Source: an uncultured Bacteroidales bacterium (GTDB lineage: Bacteria > Bacteroidota > Bacteroidia > Bacteroidales > Bacteroidaceae). From it: 64,000 bases of DNA. The position numbers and the translations under genes were made by a program. The stretch lies in assembly GCA_902776455.1 (NCBI GenBank), contig CACYQI010000005.1, positions 47,919-111,918 of the forward strand. Direction: 5' to 3'. Positions 6,590-43,440 of the stretch are shown here, piece after piece. Below the pieces are notes generated by a model, which saw only the letters and a list, made by a program, of their open reading frames with translations, did no database searches and was not told the origin of the DNA. How positions within the stretch are numbered: the stretch's first letter is position 1; each line of letters starts with the position of its first letter.

Positions 6590-7400
6590 CAGGGGGTGGG
6601 TTTACACAGCACGGAGCATCGGCCTACGCTCCACGGAGGAAAGGCTCACGCTCCACGGAGGAAAGGCCCACGCTCCACGGAGCATTTTTAACATTTCCAC
6701 AGGGGGGTGAAAAACGCAGGCAGTACCGCCGGCGAAACGCCTGTGTTTTTGAGGGTCCCTTCCCCTCCCTTTTAAGGGGAGGGGCCAGGGGTGGGGTGCA
6801 GTCGCCGCGTGTTTCTGAGGGTCCCTTCCCCTCCCTTTTAAGGGGAGGGGCCAGGGGTGGGGTGAAGTCGCCGCCGGTTCCTGAGGGTCCCTTCCCCTCC
6901 CCTCGAAGGGGAGGGGCCAGGGGTGGGGTGAAGTTGCTGCCGGTTCCTCTTTGTTTCCAAGTCCCCACCCCTAACCCCTCCCCTTCGAGGGGAGGGGAAA
7001 GGAAGCGCAGAACCACCTGCCCCAGAGTCGCCACCAAAAGCCCGACTGATACATAAAAAACTATTGCTGTCCGGGGATAATCAAGAGCACCTCTACTTAT
7101 GCGCCAATTATTCGGCTTTCCGGACGAATAGCAGCTCATGGGTGCTATATTAAGTCCCAAAGGGACGAAAGACCACAGACGGGGGCGCAAGCCCCCGGTA
7201 AAGGTACAACGAAAGAGAAAGCCCCGAGGGGGCGACAGAAACAGATGCAAGTTGAAATTAAACAAGTTACATGTTCTGTCGCCTCTTCAGGGCCAGACTG
7301 GTACGCGGACGTCTCGTCCGCGGCAGTTGCTGCAAGCGAGACAGTTGCGAACCGAAGGCCAGACTGGTACGCGGACGAGACGTCCGCGTACCATTACGAC
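6590..7400. repeat. intergenic repeat field A (four families)
   Basis: This 1-kb gap without genes holds, in order: several CTCCACGGAGCAT-type units (about 6605-6690); a 66-base tandem repeat in three copies starting at 6751, 6817 and 6883, each carrying the hairpin-forming CCCCTCCC...GGGGAGGGG core followed by a GGGGTGGGGT tail; an inverted copy of that core at about 6960-7000; a 240-base composite element at about 7062-7300 (see findings); and two divergent copies of a GGTACGCGGACG...CGTCCGCG inverted repeat at 7309-7333 and 7367-7393. Open frames across it are low complexity (PPLAPPLKREGKGP) and I do not regard them as genes. Confidence 0.8.
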
Positions 7401-10750: not shown

Positions 10751-10821
10751 TTGGGCTACCCGGACTCGAACCAGGAAAGGCAGGACCAGAATCTGCAGTG
10801 TTACCATTACACCATAGCCCA
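10751..10821 (-). tRNA. tRNA-Gln (anticodon CTG), copy 1
   Basis: The minus-strand sequence folds as a cloverleaf: acceptor TGGGCTA/TAGCCCA, D stem GTGT/ACAC, anticodon loop TTCTGGT giving anticodon CTG (reads CAG), T arm with the GGTTCGAGTCC box. The discriminator base is A and no CCA is encoded. The base pair next to the anticodon loop is an A-C mismatch. Confidence 0.93.
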
Positions 10822-10839
10822 ATAAAATAAGTTTCTCTG

Positions 10840-10910
10840 TTGGGCTACCCGGACTCGAACCAGGAAAGGCAGGACCAGAATCTGCAGTGTTACCATTACA
10901 CCATAGCCCA
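10840..10910 (-). tRNA. tRNA-Gln (anticodon CTG), copy 2
   Basis: Identical over its full length to the copy at 10751-10821, separated from it by 18 bases. It is first in the transcript, behind the -7 box at 10944-10951. The pair looks like a recent tandem duplication kept for gene dosage. Confidence 0.93.
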
Positions 10911-38630: not shown

Positions 38631-39404
38631 TTACCTAATGTTGCCTCGAATCTTAGTCAAGTAAGCGTTGAGCGCCTCCTCGTCGCGGTTGTCGATAATC
38701 TGTATTAAATCTTTCAGTTCGGAGCGAATGCCTTCGACGTGTGCCTTGGTGCGAGGGTTGAAGAGTATCTCGCGCAGCAGCGTGTCGTCCTCGCTTAGGA
38801 CGCCTTTCGCTATTGTCAGATGGCGCTTGAACGTCGTGCCGGGAGCGTCCTGATGCTTCATTACGGCCGAGAAGACAAAGGTGCTCACGAAGGGTACCGA
38901 CAGGCTGTAGGCCATCGCCTCGTCGTGTTCGTCGAAGCTGTACTCGTGGACATTCAGCCCGAGACGGCGGTAGAGGTCGAGGAAAAAGATGCGTCCCATG
39001 TAGTCGCCCTCGTTGATGACGATGGCATTCTCCGAGGAGAGTGCCCCGAGGTTGGCAAACGTGGGGCCGAACATCGGGTGCGTCGAGACGTAGCGTCGGC
39101 CGGTCTGCTCGTAGAAGTCCTTCAGGCCGGTCTTCACCGAAGAGATGTCCGAGATGATGCAGTCCGAGGGGAGATAGGGGATGACCTGCCGGAAGACGTC
39201 GGTGGTGTACTTCAGTGTGACGGCGTTGATGACGAGTTCCGGGCGGAAATCGCGTATCTCGTCGAGCGTTGTGAAACGTTGCGTGTTGTAGAGAAAACGC
39301 ATTCGGCGCGCATCAATCTCATAGACGGCGCACTCATGATCGAAGGAAAGGACGTCGGTAAAGAAGCTTCCCATCTTGCCGGCGCCAAGGATAAGGATTC
39401 TCAT
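38631..39404 (-). CDS. tyrA: prephenate dehydrogenase
   Basis: A 257-residue NAD(P)-dependent enzyme: Rossmann start MRILILGAGKMGSFFTDVLS, substrate/cofactor segments DISSVKTGLKDFYEQ and YVSTHPMFGPTFANL, and DEHDEAMAYSLSVPFVSTFV. It oxidatively decarboxylates prephenate to 4-hydroxyphenylpyruvate. I start at 39402-39404 (MRILIL); the longer frame beginning MVNPKM uses an ATG that belongs to the AAATGGTAAAT repeat. Last gene of the aromatic operon; no chorismate mutase domain, which sits on the gene upstream. Confidence 0.92.
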   Translation of the reverse strand: MRILILGAGKMGSFFTDVLSFDHECAVYEIDARRMRFLYNTQRFTTLDEIRDFRPELVINAVTLKYTTDVFRQVIPYLPSDCIISDISSVKTGLKDFYEQTGRRYVSTHPMFGPTFANLGALSSENAIVINEGDYMGRIFFLDLYRRLGLNVHEYSFDEHDEAMAYSLSVPFVSTFVFSAVMKHQDAPGTTFKRHLTIAKGVLSEDDTLLREILFNPRTKAHVEGIRSELKDLIQIIDNRDEEALNAYLTKIRGNIR

Positions 39405-39531
39405 CTTAGGATTTACCATTTAATCATTTACCATTTACCATTTACCATTTGCTGTTTTACCATTTGGCCATCTCCATTTCGCTTGTCTTTCAGATGCAAT
39501 TAAATGGTAAATGGCTAAATGGTAAATGCTT
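39405..39531. repeat. AAATGGTAAATGGC-type repeats inside the aromatic operon
   Basis: Second field of the same AT-rich family as 38485-38630: TTACCATTTAATCATTTACC at 39412-39445 and its inverse at 39500-39527, filling the space between the DAHP synthase/chorismate mutase gene and tyrA. Confidence 0.75.
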
Positions 39532-40596
39532 TTACTTGTTGATTATCTCCATTTGCTGGCGGACGCTCTCTTCGTGAATGTGCTCGAAGATGTTCTTGAT
39601 GCATTGCGTGTCGATGCCGAGCAGCGAACCTTGTGCACCCCGCTTGTCGAGTATCTCGCTGTAGCGGCGTGTCTGCACGATGGTCATGCCGCTCTCCTTC
39701 TTGTATTCGCCGATGCTGCGGCACACCTTCATGCGCTTGGCGAGCAAGTCGATGAGTTCGTTGTCGAGTTCGTCTATTTCCTGTCGGAGGCCTTTGAGTC
39801 GGTCGGGATGCTCCGAGGTGTCGCGGAAGACGAGGCGCGACACGATGAAGTCGAGCACTTCGGGTGTCACCTGTTGCGAAGCGTCGCTCCATGCCTTGTC
39901 GGGGTCGCAGTGGCTCTCCACGATGAGGCCGTCGAAGCCCAGGTCCATCGCTTCCTGGCAGAGCGAAGCAATCAGGTCGCGTCGGCCGCTGATGTGGCTC
40001 GGGTCGCACACGATGGGCAGCAGCGGCAGCCGGCGCTTCAGCTCGATGGGAATCTGCCACATCGGTTCGTTGCGGTACAGCTTCTTCTCGTAGCTGCTGA
40101 AGCCCCTGTGGATGGCGCCAAGCTTCTGTATGCCAGCACCGTTGATGCGCTCCAATGCGCCTATCCAAAGCTCGATGTCGGGGTTCACGGGGTTCTTGAC
40201 GAGGACCGTCGTGTCGGTGCCTCTCAGCGCGTCGGCAAGGGCTTGCACGGCAAAGGGGTTGGCCGTGGTGCGTGCTCCTACCCAGAGGATGTCGATGCCA
40301 TACTTGAGGGCCAGCTCCACGTGCTCAGGCGTTGCTACTTCCGTGGCTGTGAGCATGCCCGTCTCCTTCTTCACGTTTTCCATCCAGGGGAGTGCCGGTT
40401 CGCCGTGACCTTCGAAGCCTCCGGGCTTCGTGCGCGGCTTCCACACTCCTGCACGGAAGATGTGGCAGCCTTTGCCAGCCAGCTGCTTGGCGGTCGTCAT
40501 CACTTGTTCTTCTGTCTCGGCACTGCAAGGACCGGCGATGATGAAGGCACGTTCCTGGTCGCTTGGCAGGTTCAGGGGGGTCAGATTCAGTTCCAT
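39532..40596 (-). CDS. bifunctional DAHP synthase / chorismate mutase
   Basis: A 354-residue fusion. Residues about 1-255 are a type I-beta DAHP synthase: RAFIIAGPCSAETEEQVMTT, FRAGVWKPRTKPGGFEG, LKYGIDILWVGARTTANPFA, LVKNPVNPDIELW and LPIVCDPSHISGRRDLI. Residues about 265-350 are an AroQ chorismate mutase: RLKGLRQEIDELDNELIDLL and the RYSEILDKR end. It supplies the first shikimate step and the chorismate-to-prephenate step, with pheA and tyrA as neighbours. The fusion is typical of Bacteroidales and allows feedback by prephenate. 90% of the operon enzymes needed for Phe and Tyr from chorismate are therefore in one transcript. Confidence 0.94.
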   Translation of the reverse strand: MELNLTPLNLPSDQERAFIIAGPCSAETEEQVMTTAKQLAGKGCHIFRAGVWKPRTKPGGFEGHGEPALPWMENVKKETGMLTATEVATPEHVELALKYGIDILWVGARTTANPFAVQALADALRGTDTTVLVKNPVNPDIELWIGALERINGAGIQKLGAIHRGFSSYEKKLYRNEPMWQIPIELKRRLPLLPIVCDPSHISGRRDLIASLCQEAMDLGFDGLIVESHCDPDKAWSDASQQVTPEVLDFIVSRLVFRDTSEHPDRLKGLRQEIDELDNELIDLLAKRMKVCRSIGEYKKESGMTIVQTRRYSEILDKRGAQGSLLGIDTQCIKNIFEHIHEESVRQQMEIINK

Positions 40597-40674: not shown

Positions 40675-41982
40675 CTATTTCGTTGAGACGTCCTGTCCCA
40701 TTAGCTTCTTTACTCTTCGCAAGGCTTCGTCCAGCTTCTCCTCCTTCGCGCAGAGGCTGATGCGGACGTAGCGCTCGCCGTTGCTGCCGAAGATGAAGCC
40801 GGGCGTGATGAACACCCTTGCCTCGTGAAGCACGCGCTCCGTCAGCTCTTCTACATTATTATAAGTGTCGGGGATGCGTCCCCAAAGGAACATGCCCGTT
40901 TGCTGCGGGTCGAACTGGCAGCCAAGGACTTGCATGATTTCCTCCGCATAGCGGCGGCGTGGCGCGTAGGTCTCGACGTTGGCCTGCAGGTGCCATTGCT
41001 CCGAGTTGTCGTATGCCTTGGCAGCAGCCAGCTGGATGGCGCGGAAAGTGCCGCTGTCGATGTTCGACTTCACCTTCAGTATCCACTGGACGAACTGCTT
41101 GTTGCTGGCAAGCATGCCTACGCGCCAGCCCGGCATGTTGTGGCTCTTCGACATCGAATTGAACTCGATGCAGCACTCCTTGGCACGCGGCACTTGGAGA
41201 ATGGAAAGGAGACCAAGACCCTCCCCCAACCCTTCCCTTGCAGGGAGGGGAGCAGATAGTTCTTCTGCTGAAAAAGTAACTTCTCCCATCCCTGCAAGGG
41301 AGGGGTTGGGGGTGGGGGTGGGTCCGTTGGGTCTTATGAAGCTGTAGGGATTGTCGTTCACCACGATGATGCCGTGGCGCAAGGCGAAATCGACGAGCCG
41401 CTCGTAGGTCTCGCGTCTTGCCCTTGCTCCAGTCGGCATGTTCGGGTAGTTCGTCCAAAGGAGCTTCACGCGGCTGAGGTCCATCTTTTCGAGTTGTTCG
41501 AAGTCCGGCTGCCAGTCATTCTCGGGCAGAAGGTCGTAGTTGACAATCTTTGCGCCGAGCAGCTTGGAGAGACTCGTATAGGTGGGATAGCCCGGATTGG
41601 GCACAAGCACCTCATCGCCGGGGTTGACGAAGGCCAGAGTGACATGCAGGATGCCCTCCTTGCTGCCAATGAGCGGCTGTATCTCGGTGCTCGGATCAAG
41701 CTCTACACCATACCAGCGTTTGTAGAAACGCGCCATAGCGGAGCGCAACTCGGGGATGCCTACAGTAGGCTGATAGCCGTGGGCCGTGGGCTTTTGGGCT
41801 TCCTCGCAGAGCGTCTCGACGGTTTCCGGCGAAGGCGGCATGTCGGGGCTTCCGATGGCGAGGCTGATGATGTCCTTCCCTTCGGCGTTCATGGCTGCCA
41901 CTTCCTTCAGCTTGCGACTGAAATAATACTCTGTTACGTCGGCCAGCCTGTCAGCAGGCCTGAAGTTCAATTCATAGTTCAT
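40675..41982 (-). CDS. class I/II PLP aminotransferase of the aromatic operon, with repeat insertion
   Basis: A 435-residue fold-type I enzyme: LVPNPGYPTYTSLSKLLGAK, LLWTNYPNMPTGARA, VVNDNPYSFI, and the PLP lysine in FNSMSKSHNMPGWRVGMLAS. By position it transaminates phenylpyruvate and 4-hydroxyphenylpyruvate, although the sequence is also close to the LL-diaminopimelate/aspartate group. Residues about 222-260, between YSFIRPNG and the IEFNSMSK motif, are encoded by two facing CCCTCCC...GGGAGGGG elements (about 41208-41325), an in-frame insertion of an intergenic repeat; normal family length is nearer 395-400. The start ATGAACTATGAATTGAAC itself lies in an AATTCATAGTTCAT repeat. Confidence 0.88.
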   Translation of the reverse strand: MNYELNFRPADRLADVTEYYFSRKLKEVAAMNAEGKDIISLAIGSPDMPPSPETVETLCEEAQKPTAHGYQPTVGIPELRSAMARFYKRWYGVELDPSTEIQPLIGSKEGILHVTLAFVNPGDEVLVPNPGYPTYTSLSKLLGAKIVNYDLLPENDWQPDFEQLEKMDLSRVKLLWTNYPNMPTGARARRETYERLVDFALRHGIIVVNDNPYSFIRPNGPTPTPNPSLAGMGEVTFSAEELSAPLPAREGLGEGLGLLSILQVPRAKECCIEFNSMSKSHNMPGWRVGMLASNKQFVQWILKVKSNIDSGTFRAIQLAAAKAYDNSEQWHLQANVETYAPRRRYAEEIMQVLGCQFDPQQTGMFLWGRIPDTYNNVEELTERVLHEARVFITPGFIFGSNGERYVRISLCAKEEKLDEALRRVKKLMGQDVSTK

Positions 41983-42199
41983 AATACTCAATTCATTTAT
42001 GTTTCGGGAGTTCTTCGTTGCGGTCTGTAAGGTTCGGGCCGCGTGTACGATAGCATTTCACTACTTCCGAAGTTGAGTTGTTTCATTAGTCTTGTTGCCG
42101 GAGATATGCTGTTATGTTCGTTGCTCCTACATGTAGGAGTGATTGCTCCTTCATGTAAGAGCAATTGCTCCTTCATGTAGGAGCAAAGGACCTCCTTGG
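41983..42199. repeat. 22-base palindromic tandem repeat between pheA and the aminotransferase
   Basis: Three exactly adjacent 22-base units at 42121-42142, 42143-42164 and 42165-42186, each a near-palindrome TTGCTCC-TACATGTA-GGAGCAA. They start 14 bases after the pheA stop codon. The remaining part up to 41983 is non-coding with an AATTCATTTATG repeat at the aminotransferase start. Confidence 0.85.
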
Positions 42200-43033
42200 T
42201 TATACATGCATTCCATATGTGCCAAGTTGCTTGAGTTCGCGAGTTAGGGGAGTGATGGCATTGAGTGCCTGCCGGTAGCGTCGCTCGTCGCCGAAGGTGA
42301 GGTCGATGTAGAACATGTACTGCCACTCCTGCCCGATGATGGGCAGACTCTGTATTTTTGTCAGGTTGAGCTTGTAGAAGGAGAGGACCGACAGGATGGC
42401 GCTCAGGCTGCCTTCCTCGTGGGGGAGGGTGAAGACGAGGCTCGCCTTGTTGATGGAGCCTCTGCTTCTGATGGCCGTAGCCTTCTCGGGGTGAGCCAGG
42501 ACGAGGAAGCGCGTGAAGTTGTGCTTGTTCGTCTCGATGCCATCTTGCAGCACCTTCATGCAGTAGATGTCGGCAGCGTCGCGGTGGCAGATAGCGGCGT
42601 GTCCGTGTCTTTGCTCGCGGCTGATGTCGGCTGCAGCACCTGCCGTGTCGGTCGTTTCCACTATCTTCAGCCCCGGGTGTCGCGAGAGGAACTGGCGGCA
42701 CTGCATGAGTGCGACGGGATGGGAGTTCACCTCCTTGATGTCCTCCCAACTCTCATCGGGCAGACACATGATGCTGTGCTTGATGCGTAGCTTGTGCTCG
42801 CCAACGATGGTCATGCCGCTGTCGCGCAGCAGTTCGTAGTTGTGGAGCAGGCTGCCGGCTATGGTGTTCTCTATGGCCATGATGCCCAGCATGTCTGTCT
42901 CCGCTTTGAGTCGGTCGAACATCTCCTCGAAGGTGTCGCAGCAGACCAGCCGCACCTCTTCTCCCTCGAAGAAGCGATGGGCTGCAATGTCGTGGAAACT
43001 GCCCTCGATGCCTTGTATTGCAATCTGTTTCAT
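42200..43033 (-). CDS. pheA: prephenate dehydratase with ACT domain
   Basis: A 277-residue protein. Catalytic region: MKQIAIQGIEGSFHDIAAHR at the start, GIMAIENTIAGSLLHNYELL, and the TRF catalytic motif in NKHNFTRFLVLA (about 170-181). The ACT domain follows (about 195-275): HEEGSLSAILSVLSFYKLNL with KIQSLPIIGQEWQYMFYIDL, where the usual ESRP phenylalanine-binding motif reads QSLP, as is common in Bacteroidales. It makes phenylpyruvate from prephenate. I use the inner start 43031-43033; an ATG 12 bases earlier directly follows a GGAGAGGGG repeat. First structural gene behind the attenuator. Confidence 0.92.
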   Translation of the reverse strand: MKQIAIQGIEGSFHDIAAHRFFEGEEVRLVCCDTFEEMFDRLKAETDMLGIMAIENTIAGSLLHNYELLRDSGMTIVGEHKLRIKHSIMCLPDESWEDIKEVNSHPVALMQCRQFLSRHPGLKIVETTDTAGAAADISREQRHGHAAICHRDAADIYCMKVLQDGIETNKHNFTRFLVLAHPEKATAIRSRGSINKASLVFTLPHEEGSLSAILSVLSFYKLNLTKIQSLPIIGQEWQYMFYIDLTFGDERRYRQALNAITPLTRELKQLGTYGMHV

Positions 43034-43134
43034 CGTTTTAATCATGCCCCCTCTCCGTTCCCCCTTTTGGGGAGTACCTTGTCGCTCCGAAGCTCTCCCC
43101 CAAAGAGGGAGCGGGGAGGGGGCTATTAAATTAA

Positions 43135-43164
43135 AAGTCCCGCTTCACTATGTGAGCGGGACTT
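43135..43164 (-). terminator. attenuator terminator hairpin upstream of pheA
   Basis: On the transcript AAGUCCCGCU-CAC, loop AUA, GUG-A-AGCGGGACUU: thirteen pairs with one bulge, then UUUAAUUUAA. The 5' arm can instead pair with the upstream copy GUGAAGCGGG at 43213-43224, which sits directly after the leader peptide stop codon. Confidence 0.85.
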
Positions 43165-43225
43165 CCTTTTTATCTTGTTTGTTACCTTATACCTTATTTA
43201 TATATATACGACGACCCGCTTCACC

Positions 43226-43285
43226 TTATTCGCTAAAGTAAAAGTAATAATAGAAGCCGAAGTAAAACTTGTTGCTGTGAGTCAT
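43226..43285 (-). CDS. Phe/Tyr-rich leader peptide of the pheA operon attenuator
   Basis: A 19-codon frame, MTHSNKFYFGFYYYFYFSE, with five Phe and five Tyr codons in eleven consecutive positions. It lies between a perfect TATCTTTG promoter box (transcript start near 43360) and a strong terminator, upstream of pheA, aminotransferase, DAHP synthase/chorismate mutase and tyrA, which together make phenylalanine and tyrosine. The UAA stop is immediately followed by GGUGAAGCGGG, a near copy of the terminator 3' arm. A ribosome stalled for lack of charged tRNA-Phe or tRNA-Tyr would leave that strand free to pair with the terminator 5' arm (antitermination); a ribosome that reaches the stop would cover it. 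The arrangement is read directly from the sequence; in vivo function is inference from the enterobacterial pheA/trp paradigm. Confidence 0.88.
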   Translation of the reverse strand: MTHSNKFYFGFYYYFYFSE

Positions 43286-43365
43286 CGCGTTATTCTCTGT
43301 TTCTGATTTGCTGTTTCGGAGTTTCTTGTCTGTCCCGATTCCTTGTTTTCTTTCGTTTTGCGATG

Positions 43366-43373
43366 CAAAGATA
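43366..43373 (-). promoter_or_regulatory. promoter -7 box for the attenuated aromatic operon
   Basis: Minus-strand TATCTTTG followed by CATCG. A TTGG lies 19 bases upstream of it, the usual spacing to a -33 element. It gives a leader of about 325 bases before pheA. Confidence 0.75.
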
Positions 43374-43440
43374 TGCCTTTTCTTTCATTCTGCCAAGAAA
43401 AAGGCAAATTATTTTATCAAAATGTAGAAAAAACAAAGAA

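Follow-up and report, generated by a model that had tools for sequence, protein, structure and literature searches.

A predicted leader-peptide attenuator with phenylalanine and tyrosine codons upstream of the pheA operon in Bacteroidia

The leader and its surroundings

The 64,000-nt stretch of DNA from an uncultured Bacteroidales bacterium that was analyzed here (hereafter, the window) carries on its minus strand a short leader region followed by four genes of aromatic amino acid biosynthesis, which Pfam names as pheA, an aminotransferase, a DAHP synthase-chorismate mutase fusion (DAHPS/CM) and tyrA (Table 1), in agreement with an initial annotation made from the sequence. The end products of these genes are the amino acids named by the codons of the leader, an open reading frame (ORF) with five Phe and five Tyr codons among eleven. 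This frame, the promoter box ahead of it, the strand that follows its UAA at once, and the exact repeat of GUGAAGCGGG by which strand 2 can pair with the 5' arm of the terminator were all recovered as annotated. The terminator likewise lies where it had been placed (43166-43133), but the 13 pairs first counted become, in the ViennaRNA hairpin, 15 pairs with one bulge.

Table 1. Features of the leader region and downstream genes in the window
Feature	Coordinates	Strand	Basis and remarks
Presumed Bacteroidota-type promoter: TTG (43396-43394) and TATCTTTG (43373-43366)	43366..43396	-	sequence; 20 nt between
Leader ORF MTHSNKFYFGFYYYFYFSE, followed by UAA	43226..43285	-	sequence; 19 codons
Control codons 7-17 (5 Phe, 5 Tyr, 1 Gly)	43235..43267	-	sequence
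Strand 1, UUUACUUUA, overlapping the last Tyr-Phe codons	43234..43242	-	pairing potential with the start of strand 2
Strand 2, GGUGAAGCGGG, antiterminator 5' half	43215..43225	-	11 nt; sequence, pairing, covariation
Strand 3, terminator 5' arm and antiterminator 3' half	43152..43166	-	folding, covariation
Strand 4, terminator 3' arm ending CUUUU, then AAUUUAA	43133..43148	-	folding, covariation
pheA, prephenate dehydratase (PF00800)	42200..43030	-	Pfam
Aminotransferase, class I/II (PF00155)	40675..41991	-	Pfam
DAHP synthase-chorismate mutase fusion (PF00793 and PF01817)	39532..40596	-	Pfam
tyrA, prephenate dehydrogenase (PF02153)	38631..39419	-	Pfam

The TTG and TATCTTTG are taken by us to fit the Bacteroidota promoter consensus; of 78 leaders, 74 have a TAnnTTTG motif in the 150 nt that precede the ATG, compared with 57 of 1560 shuffles; the motif lies 88 nt away in the window, the median distance being 33. 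Strand 2 is separated from the terminator by a 48-nt A/U-rich spacer. A 96-nt piece that includes the terminator folds at -24.3 kcal/mol in ViennaRNA (z -3.7; 1 of 200 shuffles as good), and the U tract that follows is interrupted (UUUUAAUUUAA). The fold of the entire 226-nt leader beats 200 of 200 shuffles (z -3.3) and includes an additional helix in which the last Tyr-Phe codons form 9 pairs with the first part of strand 2, a possible 1:2 protector hairpin that had been overlooked. Between the terminator and pheA lies a second G/C-rich imperfect palindrome (43056-43132, minus strand), and some close relatives with unusually distant leaders (for instance L002, L006 and L012) have additional sequence at the same place.

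A scan of the window at Rfam gathering scores, covering T-box and other leader families, gave three matches, none of them at the leader. The covariance model of Bacteroid-trp (RF01692) had no match in the genome of origin as assembled (87% complete); among 14 control genomes, it found matches in Bacteroides ihuae. A Trp leader directly before trpE was sought and not seen. Elsewhere in the window, a segment at 7153-7198 (minus strand) matches the Acido-Lenti-1 RNA at 37.9 bits for a gathering score of 37, a family that PMC2864571 lists for Acidobacteria and Lentisphaerae; two tRNA genes with equal scores stand in tandem, 18 bases apart, at 10751-10910 (minus strand); and a long palindrome (41220-41330, minus strand; -74.0 kcal/mol) lies in frame within the aminotransferase gene, where it replaces a short NEGER-like loop and lengthens the protein by about 30 residues. 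A similar insert is present in 3 of 59 readable relatives (L094, L107 and L109), while the other 56 have 5-6 residues there.

A run of six Phe/Tyr-type codons is not rare in this genome, so that the evidence lies in context and conservation and not in the run itself; the six-codon pattern gave 9 matches, and its reversed control also 9, and genome-wide run counts were dropped as evidence. The 9 matches fall at 7 places, and four of the six other than the leader were inspected. Two of these four lie in short ORFs (L339 and L344, with the runs MFQLLLSFFYFFF and MYDFVKTFFYFFYSFFI) that are followed by no more than weaker hairpins, of -11.5 and -10.8 kcal/mol, respectively. Runs of four His-type codons (CAY) were too frequent to inform (81 matches, some of them overlapping, against 14 for the reversed pattern).

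Conservation and covariation

Relatives were drawn from a single GTDB genus, for which the name Prevotella used in the initial annotation was not borne out; 101 genomes were searched, 93 had a pheA match, and upstream regions were collected for 90 pheA places in 89 genomes (G039, G042, G047 and G050 being left out). An ORF with at least six Phe or Tyr within 11 residues is present in 78 of these 90 upstream regions, compared with 15 of 948 random windows of related loci, 2 of 450 shuffles and 19 of 90 opposite strands; for at least seven such residues, the count is 76 of 90, and those of the controls 5 of 948, 0 of 450 and 1 of 90. In the same scan, a terminator is predicted in 77 of the 78 leaders. 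A second, largely overlapping set has the leader at 72 of 80 loci, its carriers including Phocaeicola vulgatus, P. massiliensis, P. faecalis and Paraprevotella, and retains the order pheA-aminotransferase-DAHPS-CM-tyrA at 76 of 80. In the last 11 codons of the run of 78 leaders (858 codons), TTY occurs 301 times, TTR 3, TAY 353 and TAR 0, a near-constant pyrimidine at the third base after TT or TA, as is expected if the reading frame is kept.

At 12 of the 90 upstream regions, no leader ORF was found. Six of these (L032, L061, L064, L065, L066 and L070) have TAnnTTTG a few bases upstream of the start of pheA, which looks like the result of a deletion that removed the attenuator and joined the promoter to the gene; the remaining ones have no such motif near pheA in the stretch inspected, and in L048 and L050 at least, another reading frame seems to run close up to the gene. 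Further variation occurs among the carriers. In L023, L025, L034, L036-L039, L041, L042, L052 and L154 (Phocaeicola vulgatus ATCC 8482), the leader stop is placed level with the end of strand 2 or past it, and strand 2 is therefore itself in translated frame (...SNEVKR... or similar), its pairing partner being retained in the members of the genus. In L069, L071, L072, L074-L076, L079 and L080, a Trp codon stands within the aromatic run (e.g. YYWFYFYF), as is also the case in some leaders of separated tyrA genes described below.

Orthologous leaders, to which the initial annotation had pointed as the place where its proposal could fail, keep both the Phe/Tyr run and the complementarity of strand 2 to the 5' arm of the terminator, and compensatory changes are seen between the two. 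In an alignment of 77 sequences evaluated against 500 shuffles, helix 2:3 has 32 double-change cells (9.2 in shuffles) and helix 3:4 has 80 (20.7 in shuffles), values that none of the 500 shuffles reaches in either case. Paired cells amount to 80.6% for 2:3 and 91.7% for 3:4, as opposed to 41-55% and 40-54% in slid registers. In three core columns, strands 2 and 3 change jointly, and strand 4 follows or keeps a G-U pair. The number of additional pair types in 2:3 is no greater than in shuffles (173 of 500), and the changed sequences look like the product of few clades, with fewer independent events than cells counted. The 2:3 duplex averages -15.7 kcal/mol over the genus, compared with -7.3 when strand 2 is shuffled; since it still averages -13.8 kcal/mol when the 5' arms (strand 3) are swapped between species, much of this complementarity is shared by descent. 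Helix 1:2 is paired in 92% of cells without covariation beyond shuffles, a result that neither supports nor refutes the helix because it lies over conserved codons. The consensus fold of the leaders contains the terminator alone.

The leader extends far beyond the genus, to a broad assemblage of bacteria from gut and environment. In a sample of the order comprising 69 genomes, approximately one per family, 33 have pheA, one with its upstream region cut by a contig end, and the leader is present at 30 of the 32 readable upstream regions, the window's own included. Other orders of the class have it at 12 of 13 pheA places. Outside the class, 34 of 47 pheA-bearing genomes of the phylum were examined, and one convincing leader (L244) was found; L250 passes the cut as a weak ORF with a TTG start and was judged a chance occurrence. 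In a wider set of 78 leaders that includes the window's own, G135 twice, family kin and seven tyrA leaders, and in which L250 and L321 are doubtful as leaders, the 2:3 duplex reaches a shuffled fraction of at most 0.05 in 71 and of at most 0.01 in 52.

Leader codons and operon content

Long regions were read at 40 places, mostly from different families, 39 of which have a leader, and in these the composition of the run follows the genes downstream. Where pheA stands alone in the stretch read (G115, G125 and G135), none of the three 11-residue control windows holds Tyr (the Phe counts being 7, 9 and 6, respectively), and the G125 peptide has two Tyr beyond the window, at its very end. At the other 36 places, which have a DAHP synthase gene downstream in the same orientation, every window holds Tyr, from 1 to 5 residues. 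The association between Tyr in the window and operon content has a Fisher p of 1.1e-4 over the 39 leaders; G168, in which pheA has neither adjacent DAHPS/tyrA nor a leader, was left out of this test and labelled OPERON in the tree of PheA. tyrA was located at 21 of the 36 DAHP synthase loci, 17 by tblastn and 4 more by Pfam; among the other 15, the Pfam test was applied to L280 and L288, where the ORF tested is another gene. In the PheA tree, the label 'alone' needs three changes, and well-supported branches force three.

Relatives of these three genomes are in agreement with the contrast. All 17 other places in the family of G115 combine a Phe-and-Tyr leader with a downstream tyrA, aminotransferase or DAHPS gene. 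Of 13 places in the family of G135, 8 (G135 included) have a leader whose run is Phe-only, four of these eight peptides having one Tyr outside the run; the other five places have no clear leader, and at none of the 13 do tyrA/aminotransferase/DAHPS lie within approximately 2 kb. In the family of G125, a Phe-run leader occurs at 2 of 8 places (G125 included), with tyrA/aminotransferase/DAHPS nearby at none of the eight; a search for PDH_C in four genomes of this family gave no match, and they may thus not make Tyr by such a route at all.

The counterpart of this pattern is seen where tyrA has become separated from pheA. PDH_C was found in 9 of the 13 genomes searched for a separated tyrA, one locus (L334) having no readable upstream region because of a contig end. 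At all eight readable loci, tyrA has its own leader with Phe and Tyr, four of the eight also with Trp, and a DAHP synthase gene follows at seven, the eighth ending at a contig edge. We take the split-operon pattern as the strongest evidence that the leader codons serve to be read, and the joint sensing of Phe and Tyr that had been proposed for the window finds support both in this contrast and in the tyrA leaders.

A proposed attenuation mechanism

These observations suggest a ribosome-mediated transcription attenuator of the trp/pheL type that would read the supply of charged Phe-tRNA and Tyr-tRNA, an interpretation to which we assign a probability of about 0.9. Judged from its sequence, the element appears to be a real and conserved attenuator of classical anatomy that most likely responds to both Phe and Tyr. 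If Phe and Tyr are ample, the ribosome translating the leader would pass through the run to the UAA and cover strand 2, leaving strand 3 free, so that 3:4 would form and transcription would stop near 43133. If either amino acid is short, the ribosome would stall near the end of the run, at a codon for Phe or Tyr, and would sit on strand 1; strand 2 would then be free to pair with strand 3 before strand 4 is made, and RNA polymerase would read into pheA-aminotransferase-DAHPS/CM-tyrA, the four genes being presumably co-transcribed. In the absence of a ribosome, 1:2 would form and occupy strand 2, leading to termination.

The scheme was modelled by folding the RNA downstream of an assumed ribosome footprint, with strand 3 made and strand 4 not yet made; folding the downstream RNA alone is the convention in analyses of attenuators. 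When the A site holds any of codons 7-11, the predicted fold contains 6 pairs of 2:3, alongside 1:2 pairs; codons 12-17 give 9 pairs, the Ser and Glu codons 7 and 5, and the stop codon 0. With no ribosome, 1:2 forms with 9 pairs, as does the terminator. Over the genus set, strand 3 is held in the stalled state in 77 of 77 leaders, and once the ribosome is at the stop it becomes free in 61 of them and not in the other 16. Once strand 4 is present, 3:4 beats 2:3 at equilibrium in every modelled state, so that the switch, if it operates, must be kinetic, as is the choice in other attenuators. The downstream-only folds support the two exclusive structures decided by ribosome position that the initial annotation had proposed; when the footprint is held unpaired and the upstream RNA is left free to pair, 2:3 is absent, apart from 6 pairs when codon 7 occupies the A site.

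Part of the evidence could also be accommodated by other explanations, the most serious being that the attenuator is real and senses Phe alone, Tyr codons being tolerated as they lie one base from Phe codons and the pairing needs U/A-rich ones. Such a restriction has a parallel in the aroR leader of Corynebacterium (Phe-Tyr-Phe), which reportedly answers to Phe and not to Tyr (PMC11802643), and at our locus the terminal UUUUACUUU doubles as strand 1 of a possible helix. However, four of the five Tyr codons of the window's leader lie outside strand 1, and Tyr is absent from the control window in 3 of 3 leaders of pheA alone, all of which still have a 2:3 duplex at a shuffled fraction of at most 0.05, while all 36 leaders with a DAHP synthase gene in the vicinity have it; separated tyrA genes, moreover, have leaders with both amino acids at 8 of 8 readable loci. 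Sensing of Phe alone is therefore considered unlikely.

Far less probable still are two explanations that deprive the ORF of a regulatory role. It could encode a small functional peptide, for instance a membrane peptide, with the hairpin serving as an ordinary terminator that yields a small RNA, as might be suggested by a strongly aromatic product found over the class; yet the N-terminal residues and the length of the tail vary, Phe and Tyr exchange with one another, and what is retained is the class of codon and its position relative to strand 2, with a composition that tracks operon content and a helix 2:3 that covaries, all of which makes this proposal very hard to sustain. Conversely, the ORF could be incidental to an RNA switch (T-box, riboswitch or other, responding to a protein or a small molecule) that uses the same terminator. 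Close relatives do conserve sequence after strand 2 as well, but the leader gives no match at the gathering score of any Rfam family, Bacteroid-trp is without a match in the genome as assembled, and the consensus fold offers nothing besides the terminator, so that a switch of this kind appears equally improbable. The attenuator with Phe and Tyr input is retained here as the preferred explanation.

The mechanism itself is known. The E. coli pheL peptide, with its alternative 1:2, 2:3 and 3:4 pairings, is a familiar example, and the E. coli thrL and ilvL leaders illustrate how a single leader can carry codons for several products, although for other amino acids and in another phylum than here. 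The original study of the Corynebacterium glutamicum aroR leader is reportedly that of Neshat in 2014, and the abstract of a 2004 study by Vitreschak is said to mention candidate attenuators in Bacteroidetes/Chlorobi. Leader-peptide attenuation is described for E. coli pheL-pheA and pheST (PMC11802643), which resemble the present case in having product codons in a leader peptide, before pheA in the case of pheL, and regulation by charged tRNA; they differ from it in phylum, and the leader described here has equal numbers of Phe and Tyr codons and stands before a four-gene set that includes tyrA and DAHP synthase. The C. glutamicum aroR leader before aroF (Phe-Tyr-Phe), with its response to Phe and no effect of Tyr (PMC11802643), is similar in placing such residues before a DAHP synthase operon, but three are named there as opposed to ten here, and the phylum is again another.

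Within the Bacteroidota, the closest precedent comes from Flavobacterium psychrophilum, whose pheA is preceded by a structured 5' element that has no Rfam hit and is also present in other genera of the Flavobacteriaceae; the study mentions 'strong clues' to leader-peptide attenuation ahead of amino acid operons (PMC9723704). Phylum and gene are thus the same, and attenuation in the Bacteroidota is less unprecedented than the initial annotation implied when calling it little studied, although the section concerned gives no peptide, Tyr, antiterminator or survey beyond the family (PMC9723704). Bacteroid-trp (RF01692), a Bacteroidota RNA marked as probably cis-regulatory (PMC2864571), is tied to aromatic amino acids by its name, but differs in having no match at the leader or in the genome. 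Leader-like short ORFs are reported for B. thetaiotaomicron, pheA not being named in the text available (PMC7366714), and leader genes have been counted in Bacteroidetes, with no Phe system named in the corresponding part (PMC4833913); the authors of PMC2965389 state that no leader-peptide system was known outside Proteobacteria and Actinobacteria, and the available portion of that work mentions neither 'Bacteroid-' nor pheA. No description of a Phe/Tyr leader in Bacteroidota was recognised in a literature search that left most subscription journals outside its reach, and within this literature the attenuator family, its reach over the Bacteroidia and the match between codons and operon appear to be new.

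Taken across the class, it seems rather likely that these leaders form one ancestral aromatic attenuator family that acts as an OR gate on charged Phe- and Tyr-tRNA (and in some lineages also Trp), in which the pieces of split operons would have kept or gained a leader with re-tuned codons: Phe for pheA alone, and Phe and Tyr, with or without Trp, for tyrA-DAHP synthase. The response to each amino acid would be open to experiment, as the leader is present in named relatives that lend themselves to laboratory work, such as Phocaeicola vulgatus ATCC 8482, and the split operons are natural experiments that tie leader codons to the identity of the product. The Bacteroidia would thereby offer a case of classical attenuation that spans the class and can be put to the test, in a phylum for which the literature searched holds mere hints of it.
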